Below are positions 6,135-26,992 of a stretch of DNA of 43,032 bases, in pieces (positions within the stretch are counted from its first letter, which is position 1; every line of letters begins with the position of its first letter). A model generated the notes under the pieces. The model was not told the origin of the DNA. It saw nothing but the letters and a program-made list of their open reading frames with translations, and ran no database searches. This stretch comes from a bacterium HR17 (GTDB lineage Bacteria > Armatimonadota > Fervidibacteria > Fervidibacterales > Fervidibacteraceae), in NCBI GenBank assembly GCA_002898575.1, contig BEHT01000030.1, forward strand, positions 1 through 43,032. Reading direction: 5' to 3'. The position numbers and the translations under genes were made by a program.

Positions 6135-6449
6135 ATGCCGGACCAAGACCTCGCGAAAGAAATTGAAGCGCTCAAGAAGGACTTCGCAAGCATCAAAGAA
6201 GATTTAGCCAGCGTGCTAAATGCGCTCAAGGAAGAACTGAAAGGCAGGGTGCGTCGTGCAGGTTCGCAGGTCAAAACAAAGGCAGAAGAGGTAGGTGAAG
6301 GAATGCGAGACGCCATAGAGGATGTCAAAGAACGCAGTTTTGATCTGATGGAACGCCTTAAAGAAGAAGTCAGAACACAACCCCTATTGAGCACGCTCAT
6401 CGTTTTTATCTTGGGCTTTGTAGTCGGGTGGTCATTGAAACGACAATGA
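6135..6449 (+). CDS. YqjD/ElaB-like (DUF883) membrane-anchored small protein
   Basis: 104 residues, starting 8 bp after hslU stops, so likely cotranscribed with it. Residues 1-80 are almost entirely charged amphipathic helix with Lys/Glu heptad-like spacing, including a KTKAEEVGEGMRDAIEDVKE stretch. Residues about 83-100 are a single hydrophobic helix (LLSTLIVFILGFVVGWSL) ending in KRQ. This long coil plus C-terminal anchor is the layout of the DUF883/ElaB-YqjD family, whose E. coli members associate with ribosomes and the inner membrane. The family assignment comes from architecture and composition rather than a strict motif; a YtxH-like stress protein is the main alternative. The stop codon overlaps the start of the next small gene. 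Confidence 0.75.
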   Translation: MPDQDLAKEIEALKKDFASIKEDLASVLNALKEELKGRVRRAGSQVKTKAEEVGEGMRDAIEDVKERSFDLMERLKEEVRTQPLLSTLIVFILGFVVGWSLKRQ

Positions 6450-6592
6450 TGCTTCGCCTGGTGACTCTGCTCTTTGCCTTGCTGCTACGCCATGAGTTTA
6501 AGACGCTGCGCAGAGAAATCTGGGTGACTGCAGAAAGCCTTGTTTTACTCCTGCTTGCCATCTGCTTTTCATTGGCGGGGGAGGTTTCTTGA
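6446..6592 (+). CDS. Very small membrane protein (48 aa), coupled to the DUF883-like gene
   Basis: A 48-codon frame starts at ATG 6446, sharing ATGA with the stop of the preceding gene, the classic arrangement for translational coupling. It has two hydrophobic segments (residues about 3-14, LRLVTLLFALLL, and about 31-45, LVLLLLAICFSLAG) separated by a charged HEFKTLRREIW linker, so a two-helix hairpin in the inner membrane is expected. No family is recognised. It could function with the DUF883-like protein as an envelope-stress pair. Alternatively it is a chance frame; the exact overlap and hydrophobic pattern argue for a real gene. Confidence 0.5.
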   Translation: MMLRLVTLLFALLLRHEFKTLRREIWVTAESLVLLLLAICFSLAGEVS

Positions 6593-6671
6593 TAGGAGCA
6601 CTTTATCTGTGCATCTGTAGATACCTTCCGCCTGCAGCCGCCAGTGCCCTTACGGGAACCACTGCTGTGCC

Positions 6672-6698
6672 TCGGAGGGCGCGTCTCCTGACGCGCCC
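6672..6698 (-). repeat. Hairpin repeat copy 1 (inverted)
   Basis: The sequence holds GGGCGCGTC-TCCT-GACGCGCCC, a perfect 9-bp stem with a 4-nt loop, preceded by the conserved flank TCGGAG. Read on the minus strand it aligns with copies 2 and 3 (shared TCAGGAGA and CGCCCTCCGA), but the stem bases differ while pairing is kept. Confidence 0.7.
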
Positions 6699-6722
6699 TT
6701 ATGGTTTTCATGCCGTTTTTTC

Positions 6723-6756
6723 GGCGGCTCAGGAGAGCCGCCCTCCGACCAAACCC
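6723..6756 (+). repeat. Hairpin repeat copy 2
   Basis: GGCGGCTC-AGGA-GAGCCGCC forms a perfect 8-bp stem with an AGGA loop, followed by CTCCGACCAAACCC. Bases 6726-6756 are identical over 31 nt to 6793-6823. Confidence 0.75.
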
Positions 6757-6792
6757 TGTCACCGCGCAAGCCTTTGCTGGCGCCCATATCCC

Positions 6793-6823
6793 GGCTCAGG
6801 AGAGCCGCCCTCCGACCAAACCC
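6793..6823 (+). repeat. Hairpin repeat copy 3
   Basis: This is a 31-nt exact direct repeat of 6726-6756. Only the inner 5 bp of the stem (GGCTC/GAGCC) is kept on the left side, so this copy seems truncated or diverged at its 5' edge. Confidence 0.75.
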
Positions 6824-6827
6824 CAGT

Positions 6828-6860
6828 AAAAATAGGCGCGCCCTTTTTGGGGACGCGCCC
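6828..6860 (-). terminator. Intrinsic terminator of the tig-lon operon
   Basis: On the minus strand a GC-rich stem (GGCGCG plus CCC paired with GGG plus CGCGCC, loop AAAAA, 2-nt bulge) is followed by TATTTTTAC. It lies about 90 bp past the lon stop codon and could also slow transcription arriving from the hslU side. Confidence 0.65.
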
Positions 6861-6951
6861 GTTTTGCCTCTTGCAATCGTTACTGCTGGCAGCGCCGGTT
6901 CCACTCGTCGGACGATGGAACACCCTGACGGCAGCTGTATAACGCAGTGCG

Positions 6952-9381
6952 TCACACCATCGTCGCCGCTGTCATCGGTGCAGGCGCCACAGCCGGCGCC
7001 GTCTGGGTGAACCCTTTGAGGGCGACAGGCAACACTTCGTCCATGTGACGCACAAAGACCAATTGCAAATCCTTAAGGACTTTGGGCGGCAAATCCTGCA
7101 GGTCTTTCTCGTTTTCCTTCGGCAAGATGACGACCTTCAAGCCAGTGCGATGGGCACCCAGTAGTTTCTCCTTGATGCCGCCGACAGGCAGGACTTTGCC
7201 CCGCAGCGTGATTTCGCCTGTCATACCGACTTCACGGCGAACGGGCAACCCCGTCACCGCCGAGACGAGGGCGACTGCCATCGTCACGCCGGCTGACGGT
7301 CCATCTTTAGGGATGGCACCAGCGGGGACATGGATGTGGACATCGGTCTTGTCAGTCAGGCGGTCTTTCAAACCCAAGCGGGCAGCGACGGTGCGGGCGT
7401 AAGTCAGCGCCGCTTTGGCGGACTCTTGCATGACTTCCCCCAACTGCCCCGTTAGCACTAACTTGCCGCTCCCTTCCAGCAGCGTAACTTCAACGGAGAG
7501 CACATCGCCACCGATGCCTGTCCACGCCAACGCCATTGCCACGCCGATTTCGTCCTGCTCTTCCATCTCCCCTAAGCGGAACTTGGGCGGTCCGAGGAAC
7601 TTGGGCAAATTAGACGGCGTAACGCGCACCGCGACCTCTTTGCCTTTGGCGACTTGGACGGCGACTTTGCGCATGATGGCTTGAATTTGCCGCTCCAAAT
7701 TGCGCACACCAGCTTCCTGTGTGTAATGGCGAATAATGCGACGCAGTGCCGTTTCAGTGATGGTCAGATAGTTGGAGCGGAGTCCGTGACTGTCCAGGTT
7801 TTTGGGAATCAGGTGGCGCAGGGCGATTTGCACCTTTTCGTCCTCTGTGTAGCCGGGGAAGTTGATAATTTCCAAGCGGTCGCGCAACGCTGGCGGGATG
7901 GTGTCAGTGACATTGCCCGTCAGGATGAATAGCACCTCGCTCAGGTCAAAAGGCACCTCAATGTAGTGGTCGCTGAACGCGTTGTTCTGTTCGGGGTCTA
8001 AGGCTTCCAACAGGGCAGCGGCAGGGTCGCCCCGCCAGTCCACACCCAGTTTGTCAATCTCGTCCAGCATGAAAACAGGGTTTTTCGTGCCGGCTTGGCG
8101 GATGCCTTGGATGATGCGCCCTGGCAGGGCACCGACATAAGTGCGTCGGTGCCCGCGAATTTCTGCCTCATCGCGGATGCCGCCCAAACTGATGCGGACA
8201 AACTTTCGTCCCATCGCTCGGGCAATGGATTTACCGATGCTGGTCTTTCCGACACCGGGCGGACCGATGAAGCACAAAATCGGACCTTTCGTTTTGTCGG
8301 TCAGTTTGCGGACCGCCAAGAACTCCAAGATGCGCTCCTTGACATCTTTAAGTCCGTAGTGGTCTTCATCCAAAATGCGTTGGGCACGGTCAACGTCCAA
8401 GTTGTCCTTGGTGCGCTTGTTCCAAGGCAAACTCAACAGCCAATCCAAGTAGGTGCGGATGACACCCGTTTCGGGTGACATCGGCGGTATTTTTTCCAAC
8501 CGCTCTATTTCTTTGAGGGCGCGTTCACGGGCGGGTTCAGAAAGCTTGAGCCGTTCTACCTTTTCGCGCAACTCCTCCACTTCGGCGGTGAAGATGTCGC
8601 GCTCCCCCAACTCCTCTTGGATGGCTTTCAGGCGTTCTCGCAGGATGAACTCGCGTTGTGACGCAGTGACGCCTTCTTTAACGCGGGCTTCAATACGCCG
8701 CTCCAGTTCAACGATTTGCAACTCCCGTTCCAACAAGACAAGCAGTTTGCGCAAGCGTTCTTGTGGCGACAATGTCTCCAAGAGGTCTTGGCGTTCGCCG
8801 ACCTTTAAGTCCGTGCAGAACGCTGCGATGATGTCAGCGGTGCGACCTGGACTGTCACTGCTGGACAGATACATCACCGCGTCGGGCGGGATAGAGCGAT
8901 TGCCTTGCACCAGTTGTTCAAACTTTTGCCGCGCCAATCGCTCCAAAGCGACGGTTTCTGCGTCGCGCTCGTCGGGCTCTTGCAACTCCTCCACGATCAC
9001 CAAGTAGAATGGCTCGGAGCGGGTGATTTTCACCAACCGCGCGCGGCACCGCCCTTGCGCCAGAACACGGATGTTGCCGTCTGGCAGCCGCATGGGCTGC
9101 AGTAAGTCAGCGACCGTGCCGATCGTGTAAAGGTCTTCCGCTTGCGGCTCGGCAGTTGTCGGGCTTCGTTGTAAAACCATGAACACCGGCAAGTCGCGCG
9201 CGAACACTTCTTCCATCGCCCGCAAGGATTTCTGTCGCCCGATGATGACAGGCGTCGTCGCGCCGGGAAAGATGACCAAATCAGGCAGGGGAATCATGGG
9301 GATGGCGTAAGTCCTCTTTTCGGCTGCTGTCGTTTGTTTTTCTGCCGTTTGCCTCTCGGCTTTAGCGGATACACGCGACAA
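6952..9381 (-). CDS. lon: ATP-dependent Lon protease (LonA)
   Basis: 809 residues, normal LonA length. It degrades misfolded and regulatory proteins in the cytosol. The order of domains is N-terminal LON substrate domain (from about residue 25, IPMIPLPDLVIFPG), a coiled-coil region (about 220-310), the AAA+ module with Walker A GPPGVGKT at 373-380, and the C-terminal protease with Ser696 in DGPSAG and Lys739 in the GGIKEK segment as the Ser-Lys dyad. The start is TTG 9381, supported by AAGGGGTGA with a 6-nt spacer. The first ~23 residues are polar, Ala/Lys/Thr-rich and probably disordered, as is the Ala/Pro/Thr tail. It lies 31 bp downstream of clpX and is the last gene of the tig-qorB-clpP-clpX-lon unit. 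Confidence 0.97.
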   Translation of the reverse strand: MSRVSAKAERQTAEKQTTAAEKRTYAIPMIPLPDLVIFPGATTPVIIGRQKSLRAMEEVFARDLPVFMVLQRSPTTAEPQAEDLYTIGTVADLLQPMRLPDGNIRVLAQGRCRARLVKITRSEPFYLVIVEELQEPDERDAETVALERLARQKFEQLVQGNRSIPPDAVMYLSSSDSPGRTADIIAAFCTDLKVGERQDLLETLSPQERLRKLLVLLERELQIVELERRIEARVKEGVTASQREFILRERLKAIQEELGERDIFTAEVEELREKVERLKLSEPARERALKEIERLEKIPPMSPETGVIRTYLDWLLSLPWNKRTKDNLDVDRAQRILDEDHYGLKDVKERILEFLAVRKLTDKTKGPILCFIGPPGVGKTSIGKSIARAMGRKFVRISLGGIRDEAEIRGHRRTYVGALPGRIIQGIRQAGTKNPVFMLDEIDKLGVDWRGDPAAALLEALDPEQNNAFSDHYIEVPFDLSEVLFILTGNVTDTIPPALRDRLEIINFPGYTEDEKVQIALRHLIPKNLDSHGLRSNYLTITETALRRIIRHYTQEAGVRNLERQIQAIMRKVAVQVAKGKEVAVRVTPSNLPKFLGPPKFRLGEMEEQDEIGVAMALAWTGIGGDVLSVEVTLLEGSGKLVLTGQLGEVMQESAKAALTYARTVAARLGLKDRLTDKTDVHIHVPAGAIPKDGPSAGVTMAVALVSAVTGLPVRREVGMTGEITLRGKVLPVGGIKEKLLGAHRTGLKVVILPKENEKDLQDLPPKVLKDLQLVFVRHMDEVLPVALKGFTQTAPAVAPAPMTAATMV

Positions 9382-21268: not shown

Positions 21269-22672
21269 ATGCGTTGGGTTCACTGGGCACTTGTGATGGG
21301 GATAGGGGCTGCAGCGATGGCGCAAAGCGGGTTTAGCACTAAAACCCCGACCAGCGATTGGCTACATGACCTCATGCGCAACTCCCCTGCCCTTGCGTTA
21401 GGTGCAGCAGGCAAGGCAGTGTGGCTGCCGGGTGACGCGGAACGGTGGCAGCAGTTTGACGGTGTTCGGCGTGAAAGCGATGACGCTTTGTTCACCTGGT
21501 GGACGACAGAGAGGTGGCAACAAGGACGCTTGACGCCGCCGCGATGGCAGTGGAGCGTCCAGTTGCGCGGCTTTGCCGCGCGCCAAATCGGCGAACGGAC
21601 AACTTGGGAACACTTTGATGCGTTCACCCTCACCTATCACCCAGACGAGCGCTGGGGTGCGATACTACAATTGCGCCACCGCGACCCTCTGCCGCTGACG
21701 GACACGCGCCCTGTACCGACACTGGAAATCGCAACCGTTCGTGGGTTCATCGGCAGCACCGTGTGGGAGTTTGGGCGCAACTATCACCGATGGGGTCCTG
21801 GCTTTTGGGGCACGCCGTTGCTCTCCGACACCGGCTACCCGCTGGACGGCGTCACGGTGAGTTTGCGGCTTAAACTGCCACTCGTTGGGCGCTGGCGGGT
21901 GCGGCAATTGATGGCGTATCTGCATGGCGATCGGGACGGGCGGTTTTTGCTGGTGCGGCGGTGGGAGAAACCTTTGGGCACTGCATGGCACATTGGGTTT
22001 ACCGAATGCAACATTTCTCGGTCCTTTCCGCCCCCGACGACGGTCTTTTTGCCTTTTTATCCCGCGTCGCGGCTGGCGGTGCGGGCAGGGTGGCGCACCG
22101 AGGGCACTGACCAGGTCATCGTCAACGGTGATGTGCAATGGCGACAGGCCGCATGGACGCTCTACGGCGCCGTCGTCGTGGACGACATCCGCTTGCCCTT
22201 CTCCAAAAAAATTGAGGTCCAACAAAAACTGGGCTGGATTTTCGGGGCGCAGTGGGAGCGTCCCCGATGGACTTTGGGCGCTGAGTTCGCCCACTTTGAC
22301 CAGTTCACCTACACCCACACCCGTCCCGTCAACTTCTACGACTATCACGGCATCGGGTTGGGTTACCCGACAGGACCCGACTCGCGGTTGTTTTCTGTGT
22401 GGCTGCGGTGGCAGTGGCACCCGCGCTGGCAGTTAACGGGTATGGCAGCCAACAGTTTCCTGAACCGCCACGACCCCGCCCAACGGGACCGTGAAGGCTA
22501 TTGGACATTGAGCCTGCAATGGGCAGCCGATCGGTCTACCTTGTTGGCGCTCCATTGGACACGGGGCTTCCCGCCTATCTGGGGATTACAAGGTGGATGG
22601 TCTGAACAACAGGAGCGGCAACGCTTCCTGTTGCTGGAAGTGCGTTGGCGAGGGTTAGGCGCCATGCGTTAA
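21269..22672 (+). CDS. Outer-membrane beta-barrel protein, Wzi-like (capsule assembly family)
   Basis: 467 residues from ATG 21269. A signal peptide covers residues 1-18 (GAAAMAQSG cleavage region). The mature protein is rich in amphipathic strands with Trp/Tyr/Arg alternation and short turns, the pattern of a large beta-barrel. NYHRWGPG at residues 171-178 followed by GFWGTPLLSDTGYP matches the conserved RWGPG...LLS segment of the Wzi/CapsuleAssembly family (PF14052). E. coli Wzi is an outer-membrane lectin that holds group 1 capsule on the cell surface. No capsule genes are nearby, so the ligand is unknown. Presence of such a barrel argues for an outer membrane in this organism. The last codons lie in a large inverted repeat. 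Confidence 0.72.
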   Translation: MRWVHWALVMGIGAAAMAQSGFSTKTPTSDWLHDLMRNSPALALGAAGKAVWLPGDAERWQQFDGVRRESDDALFTWWTTERWQQGRLTPPRWQWSVQLRGFAARQIGERTTWEHFDAFTLTYHPDERWGAILQLRHRDPLPLTDTRPVPTLEIATVRGFIGSTVWEFGRNYHRWGPGFWGTPLLSDTGYPLDGVTVSLRLKLPLVGRWRVRQLMAYLHGDRDGRFLLVRRWEKPLGTAWHIGFTECNISRSFPPPTTVFLPFYPASRLAVRAGWRTEGTDQVIVNGDVQWRQAAWTLYGAVVVDDIRLPFSKKIEVQQKLGWIFGAQWERPRWTLGAEFAHFDQFTYTHTRPVNFYDYHGIGLGYPTGPDSRLFSVWLRWQWHPRWQLTGMAANSFLNRHDPAQRDREGYWTLSLQWAADRSTLLALHWTRGFPPIWGLQGGWSEQQERQRFLLLEVRWRGLGAMR

Positions 22673-22685
22673 ACGCATGGCGCCT
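22657..22685. repeat. Near-perfect inverted repeat spanning the stop codon of the Wzi-like gene
   Basis: Arms AGGCGCCATGCGTT (22657-22670) and AACGCATGGCGCCT (22672-22685) are perfect complements around one central A. TAA at 22670-22672 is the stop codon. As RNA the centre would open into a small loop on a stem of about 12 bp. There is no T-run, so this is not a standard terminator; a 3'-end stabiliser, or a barrier between the two convergent genes, is possible. Confidence 0.6.
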
Positions 22686-26203: not shown

Positions 26204-26992
26204 ATGGACTTGGGCTTGCAGGGTAAAATCGCCGTCGTAACAGGAGGCACGAAAGGCATCGGTTGGGCGACAGCGGCATGGCTCGCCCGCGAAGGGGCAC
26301 AAGTGGCAATTTGCGCCCGCACCACGAGCGACTTAGAACGCGCCGCCGAGGAAATCGCCGCCGCAACAGCACGACGCCCGTTTGCGATGCCGTGCGATGT
26401 CACGGACGACGAACAGGTGCAGCGTTTTTTCACCGCCGTGCTGGAGCGCTTCGGCACGGTGCACATCCTCGTCAACAACGCGGGGCGGGCGCAACCGGGG
26501 CACTTTGACGAGTTGACTTGGCAGCAGTGGCAGGACGACCTGAATGTGAAACTTTACGCCCACATCCGTTGCATCAAGGCTGTGCTGCCTACGATGAAGG
26601 CGCAACGGTGGGGGCGCATCATTAACATGAACAGCATTTTGGGCAAGCAACCCAGCGCCGCCGCGATTTGCACCAGCACTTGGCGCGCCGCGTGCATCGC
26701 GTTCACAAAAGCGCTGGCAGATGAGTTAGCCCCCTACAACATCACGGTCAACAGCGTCAACTTGGGCACCATCGTCAGCGACCAGTTGGAGCGACGGCGC
26801 CAACGCGTTGCTCCGCACCTGACGCTGGAAGAGTTTGCAGACAAGACAGCAAAGGAGATGGGCATCCCGCTGGGGCGGTTGGGACGACCCGAAGAGGTGG
26901 CGGCGCTCGTGTGCTTCCTTGCGTCGGAGCATGCAGGCTACATTACTGGCGCCGCCGTCAACATTGACGGCGGCGCCGCTCGGTTCGTGTGA
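26204..26992 (+). CDS. Short-chain dehydrogenase/reductase with non-canonical active site
   Basis: 262 residues from ATG 26204. The cofactor motif TGGTKGIG is at residues 13-20, NNAG is present at about residue 92, and the C-terminus YITGAAVNIDGG is classic for SDRs close to 3-oxoacyl-ACP reductases. The catalytic Ser144 is kept (NMNSILG). The YxxxK motif is not: the aligned segment reads T157-S-T-W-R161, so Tyr is replaced by Thr and Lys by Arg. If one instead allows a 2-residue gap, Tyr becomes Ile155, still not Tyr. The protein may bind NAD(P) but use other chemistry. It is convergent with the prepilin gene, with stop codons only 3 bp apart. Confidence 0.9.
   Translation: MDLGLQGKIAVVTGGTKGIGWATAAWLAREGAQVAICARTTSDLERAAEEIAAATARRPFAMPCDVTDDEQVQRFFTAVLERFGTVHILVNNAGRAQPGHFDELTWQQWQDDLNVKLYAHIRCIKAVLPTMKAQRWGRIINMNSILGKQPSAAAICTSTWRAACIAFTKALADELAPYNITVNSVNLGTIVSDQLERRRQRVAPHLTLEEFADKTAKEMGIPLGRLGRPEEVAALVCFLASEHAGYITGAAVNIDGGAARFV

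Follow-up and report, generated by a model that had tools for sequence, protein, structure and literature searches.

A genome-wide family of GGAG-headed, REP-like DNA hairpins in bacterium HR17

Introduction

REPs are defined in PMC3686654 by the 5′ tetranucleotide GT(A/G)G with a palindrome downstream, by their large numbers and by an almost exclusively intergenic location; PMC8266576 words this more loosely, with a head that is 'most often GTAG'. Complementary stem changes, dimers and clusters are described in PMC3733652, as are the head variants GYAG, GYRG, GTRG, GTMG and GTGG; GGAG is not among the degenerate heads in the text of that paper on head variants. According to PMC8266576, RAYTs cleave REPs in single-stranded form at CT or CA; the head is presumed to be a guide, and A3 and G4 of GTAG can serve to select CT. 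If this holds, a GGAG head would likewise select CT. GGAG does not occur in the main text of PMC8266576, and a word search of a literature collection found GGAG and RAYT together, each as a whole word, in no paper. The rules for REP prediction given in PMC6006769 were built on 66 families, all including GTAG or GTGG, so GGAG families could be missed by them.

The hairpins studied here are like the REPs and BIMEs of the GTAG superfamily (PMC2817692, PMC3686654, PMC3733652) in that a short head precedes a palindrome, in their many, mostly intergenic copies, and in their inverted dimers, clusters, subfamilies with complementary stems and co-occurrence of several families in one genome. They are unlike them in the head, which is GGAG instead of GT(A/G)G, and in that no RAYT flanked by GGAG units was found in this assembly. 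The CGTC-tagged REPs of PMC3733652 are also REP-like and apparently without a dedicated transposase, but have another head, and near-identical GGAG units flank a RAYT in another bacterium.

Results

Three hairpins between convergent gene ends

The window, meaning the whole stretch of DNA analysed (43,032 nucleotides), corresponds to positions 1-43032 of contig C30 of a 3.15 Mb genome in 75 contigs (96% complete). Three hairpins were present where the original prediction had placed them, between a 104-aa ORF and the convergent lon gene (Table 1). Copy 1 is inverted relative to copy 2 (85% complementary), and paired changes separate its stem, GGCGCGTC/GACGCGCC, from GGCGGCTC/GAGCCGCC, in agreement with the proposal of an inverted copy with a different yet paired stem. 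The identity claimed for copies 2 and 3 was real, although it covers 32 nt and not 31. Copies 1 and 2 are arranged tail to tail with 25 nt between them, and of 90 tail-to-tail pairs in the sample described below, 10 have a spacing of 23-26 nt. When folded as single-stranded DNA, none of 200 shuffles folded as well as copy 1, two as well as copy 2 and 16 as well as copy 3. Unlike those of copies 1 and 2, the fold of copy 3 is not unusual, and this copy was left out of the 225 sample units, for which one stem mismatch was allowed. An Rfam search of positions 6400-7000 gave two matches only, both far under the gathering scores, and searching viral contigs for the hairpin family gave zero matches. 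Past the 3′ end of lon, a GC-rich hairpin containing a single-base bulge was seen by eye at 6835-6860, followed by TATTTTT on the minus strand; this is possibly the lon terminator.

Table 1. Positions of the hairpins, their neighbours and related features; positions without a locus label are those of the window.
Feature	Position	Strand	Description
Copy 1, c-type	6672-6697	+	TC 6672-6673, head GGAG 6674-6677
Copy 1 hairpin	6678-6685, 6686-6689, 6690-6697		stem GGCGCGTC, loop TCCT, stem GACGCGCC
Copy 2, g-type	6723-6748	-	minus-strand reading TC GGAG GGCGGCTC TCCT GAGCCGCC
Copy 3, g-type	6790-6815	-	stem of 6 bp: inner 6 of the 8 pairs kept, outer two broken
32-nt identical stretch	6725-6756 = 6792-6823		comprises the head, the greater part of the hairpin and, past the head, ACCAAACCC
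Neighbouring 104-aa ORF	6135-6449	+	weak match, far under cut-off, to an apolipoprotein-type model
Lon protease gene (lon)	6952-9381	-	converges on the repeats
Second REP family array	L031:1020-2132 and 2762-2952 (contig C41)		GTAG-CGTCG hairpins
Second Y1-like ORF	L104:1402-2028 (contig C45)	-	208 aa, divergent, IMPNHFHG motif

Several hundred copies in one genome

When searching the whole genome, the relaxed pattern GGAGGGCG-N11-13-CGCC was found 353+327 times, against 1+0 for the reversed control. The pattern CGGAGGG-N5-9-TCCT-N5-9-CC gave 163+175 matches (control 0+1), with a few places counted twice owing to the variable gaps, and the strict motif GGAGGGCGNNTCTYYYGANNCGCC gave 242+216 (control 0+0). 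The three hairpins belong to a genome-wide family of several hundred small DNA hairpins, so the predicted scatter of the REP or BIME kind is present and the outcome in which no further copies exist did not arise.

The strict motif was absent from the other 290 of the 291 genomes of the phylum examined, which include two of the same genus that are merely 61 and 63% complete. A looser pattern gave low counts in these genomes, broadly as its reversed control did, so absence is judged on the strict pattern only. A search among relatives for a counterpart of this site without units gave no such empty site: the lon gene of G003 is 76% identical and has other neighbours, and the best match in G001, of the same genus, is 56% identical; at this site the relatives are either too distant or changed in gene order.

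In genome_contigs, the strict 25-mer pattern was found in 31 stretches: Geminisphaera colitermitum TAV2 accounts for 30, and the remaining one is from a MAG labelled Flavobacteriales. Near the end of a contig of that MAG lies an inverted pair of family-like hairpins (L076:5264-5375), with 80% identity over 111 nt to a stretch of our genome; the GC content of the contig is 47%, compared to 59% for the stretches of our genome. Misbinning or transfer are possible explanations for this pair.

A conserved GGAG head and a covarying stem

The units were studied in a sample of 629,497 bases, made up of the window and 33 further genome stretches (586,465 bases); densities in it are biased upward because stretches were partly picked for holding copies. 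GGAG preceded 188 of the 690 strand-counted perfect hairpins of at least 8 bp, and the next heads were TTTC (40, mostly the reverse side of GGAG units) and GTAG (32). With one mismatch allowed, 241 hairpins followed GGAG, 53 followed GTAG and 6 to 46 followed each of nine other heads. We kept 225 of the 241, leaving out 16 whose stem starts other than with GG[C/T]. When units were picked by stem and loop alone, with the head disregarded, 191 of 201 carried GGAG and not GT(A/G)G, and 192 of 201 had TC ahead of it. A unit consists of TC-GGAG followed by a stem of 8 bp with a loop of 3-4 nt.

Selection on structure had been suggested from the stem changes in the window, and changes that preserve pairing were also found across the sample. 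In four stem columns left unconstrained together with their partners, with no preselection for pairing there, 815 of 848 pairs were Watson-Crick (shuffle mean 567, maximum 612), and 181 of 212 units were fully paired. Counting each of the 23 distinct stem combinations once, 75 of 92 pairs were Watson-Crick (shuffle mean 48, maximum 63). The commonest combinations were CGGC/GCCG (90), CGCG/CGCG (36), CGCA/TGCG (36), CGGT/ACCG (10) and TGCG/CGCA (5), and one-sided intermediates such as CGCA/CGCG (10) occur. Among 38 distinct rows, taken from 41 distinct rows with a 4-nt loop and preselected for pairing, double changes were found at five of the eight stem pairs, with a covariation score of 0.368 compared to 0.110 for shuffles and at most 0.049 for a slid alignment; a few G-U type pairs were present. 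The consensus 3′ of the hairpin is GAAaA, without a T run, in g-type units and the mildly T-rich G.TtT in c-type units. Outside the outermost heads, where a cut site might lie, only the dinucleotide TC next to the head is conserved.

Alternating arrays, mostly between genes

The 225 units comprise 119 g-type and 106 c-type units, called by stem position 5, and fall into 55 clusters, of which 15 consist of one unit and the largest of 16. Neighbours within 150 nt were opposite in both orientation and subtype in 155 of 170 pairs (90 +c/-g and 65 -c/+g). The remaining 15 pairs were same-type tandem neighbours, in which a unit in between could have been missed, and none of the 170 were same-type inverted neighbours. 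The c-type and g-type units are thus alternating and regularly spaced, which fits the BIME plan and the BIME-like organisation that had been anticipated. They resemble the alternating Y and Z2 units of E. coli BIME-2.

Outside ORFs we found 193 of the 225 units in a sample that is 83% coding when ORFs mostly made of repeats are set aside, and just 149 of 225 when these are kept; both counts rest on crude gene calling and on a sample biased to copy-bearing stretches. The contexts of the 55 clusters were -- 16, ++ 14, +- 5, -+ 5, within an ORF 7 and at a stretch edge 8. They track the intergenic background (-- 25.2, ++ 26.9, +- 14.4 and -+ 15.3 kb), with no excess at convergent gene ends.

A unit was located within 300 nt of six of the 13 contig ends looked at, taking the right end of the window as the end of C30. 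An array-flanked transposase could therefore be absent from the assembly. The last 43 nt of contig C1 are the first 43 nt of C41, inside a unit array, so these two contigs may be neighbours.

A RAYT flanked by a second, GTAG-headed family

A PF01797 search of the genome found one gene (C41:29343-29672). Its 174-aa product has E. coli TnpArep as its best solved structure (4er8, E 1.4e-7), and it is the sole REP-flanked RAYT of the assembly. A search for a REP-associated transposase had originally been suggested; the flanks of this gene hold GTAG units only and not the GGAG family. The GTAG-CGTCG.. hairpins of this second family have two stem types, mostly alternate, and lie around and beyond the gene. 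A strict pattern for one stem type had 15 matches genome-wide. Heads of 54 second-family units in the sample were GTAG (46), GTCG (7) and GAAG (1), and stems and loops differ between the two families.

The Y1-like ORF on contig C45 scored 21.8 bits against the Pfam cut-off of 23. Its locus (3,093 nt) holds no family units; two short G-headed hairpins there look like chance, and no inverted repeats of at least 14 nt were found around the ORF (L104:900-2400). Whole-genome protein searches at E up to 10 gave no third Y1 protein. No Y1 gene flanked by GGAG units was found in the assembly, and a rayt gene between two inverted copies, which characterises RAYT-associated REPs, was thus not seen for this family in its own genome.

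Across the phylum, 124 of 201 genomes had a match. None of the 30 best-scoring Y1 loci, some of them cut by contig ends, was flanked left and right by G[TG][AG]G-headed hairpins; because they were chosen as best-scoring Pfam matches, these loci are biased to ordinary IS200-like genes.

GGAG hairpins beside a RAYT in Geminisphaera

Geminisphaera is a verrucomicrobium of the Opitutaceae. In G. colitermitum TAV2 (loci L061-L075, L077-L091 and L093) a related GGAG pattern had 84+88 matches (172; control 0). Hairpins were found on both sides of the Y1 gene at six loci, with GGAG heads at four and GTAG heads at two. At L093, GGAG GGCGGGTC[TCCC]GACCCGCC stands on either side of a Y1 transposase (RAYT) gene, the arms being a 29-nt inverted repeat, 100% complementary, 859 nt apart. 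The GGAG head with nearly the same hairpin is therefore RAYT-linked in at least one genome.

The Geminisphaera hairpins have the GGAG head, the 8-bp stem, the core TCTCC[TC]GA and the inverted dimers in common with our family. In contrast, their left arm is GGCGGGTC in all of 100 places among the matches listed, their dimers start about 70-100 nt apart, and they flank a RAYT, whereas the GGAG units of our genome flank none in the assembly.

We also compared residues of GGAG-flanked RAYTs (LWQEDYWDRIVR, SWKKDYFDRLVR, GWQKDYFDRLIR) with those of GTAG-flanked ones (LWQRGFYEHIVR, FWQRESFDHWVR, QWQRDFWEHRLR). This signature was rejected because the set is too small, because a fourth GGAG-flanked protein (L092) fails to fit, and because the D and R changes are reported in PMC6006769 for subclasses 2.5 and 2.7, the latter with canonical GT[AG]G REPs.

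Discussion

With a probability of about 0.8, the three hairpins are units of a GGAG-headed, REP-like, non-autonomous element mobilised by a RAYT. The copy number, the head, the covariation, the alternation, the intergenic bias and the GGAG-RAYT linkage in another bacterium are observed; the mobilising enzyme, and mobility itself, we infer, and the family is probably mobile. A RAYT-type HUH/Y1 transposase would recognise the GGAG head and the hairpin in single-stranded DNA and cut beside it, and single units or inverted pairs would be moved or copied, mostly to intergenic sites. Local amplification would then give the arrays in which c-type and g-type units alternate in opposite orientation, and selection for recognition would hold the head and the pairing while the stem letters drift. 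The cognate RAYT may have been lost, may be unassembled, or may have been replaced by a present Y1 protein that acts in trans.

The REP/BIME interpretation was correct in kind, with GGAG as the head instead of GTAG or GTGG. Under the strict head definition of PMC3686654 the GGAG family is not a REP family, though it is REP-like in build and organisation: the covarying 8-bp stem lies directly 3′ of the head, the 680 relaxed matches make it numerous, most units lie outside ORFs, and inverted dimers alternate.

It is possible, though rather doubtful, that the C41 RAYT moves both the GGAG and the GTAG families, or that the C45 protein moves the GGAG family. No other Y1 protein was detected, and 25 of the 54 units of the second family have a GGAG unit no more than 355 nt away, a count that comes from a sample biased to GGAG-bearing stretches. 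The C41 gene being flanked by GTAG units only, and the different stems and loops, speak against a shared enzyme. The enzymology in PMC8266576 points both ways: head mutations were largely tolerated in binding by the Stenotrophomonas enzyme and in cleavage by the Marinomonas enzyme, but cleavage by the former suffered seriously, and GTAG is instrumental for E. coli.

We consider it improbable that the units owe their retention mainly to a role as RNA hairpins, stabilising mRNA 3′ ends or stopping transcription, and that this use drove their multiplication. The position of the window copies between convergent gene ends, the good folding of copies 1 and 2 (with DNA parameters) and the few G-U type pairs would suit such a role. 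However, orientation alternates between neighbouring units, only c-type hairpins are followed by mildly T-rich sequence, clusters show no preference for convergent ends, and the highly conserved GGAG head is unpaired. Local duplication alone, or chance, has next to no probability: the 32 nt that copies 2 and 3 have in common, flank included, are set against 680 genome matches with a single one for the control.

What is unusual about the RAYT-type element favoured here is that its head is outside the REP definition and that no transposase was found between its units in their own genome. The presence in one genome of a GTAG family around its RAYT, next to a more numerous GGAG family for which none was found, bears on how REPs outlive or switch transposases. 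As a tentative suggestion, GGAG-headed REPs might form a separate guide class with its own RAYT lineage, at least in Geminisphaera, and be an orphan or horizontally acquired burst in one species of the phylum studied here. Changed residues around the W-Q...R segment, which binds the guide, would then distinguish T from G at the second head position, amounting to a simple specificity code. For probing what reads the guide, Geminisphaera offers a ready set in its Y1 genes flanked by GGAG or GTAG hairpins.

Additional observations

Two perfect hairpins with 13-bp stems, unlike the GGAG family, are located in the window at 22657-22685 and 26948-26977. On contig C12, a 1268-aa ORF with Eco57I/MmeI-type methylase matches (L136:5628-9434) contains a unit array at 6368-6743, in which 11 alternating units with a 75-nt period are read in-frame as tandem 25-residue repeats.
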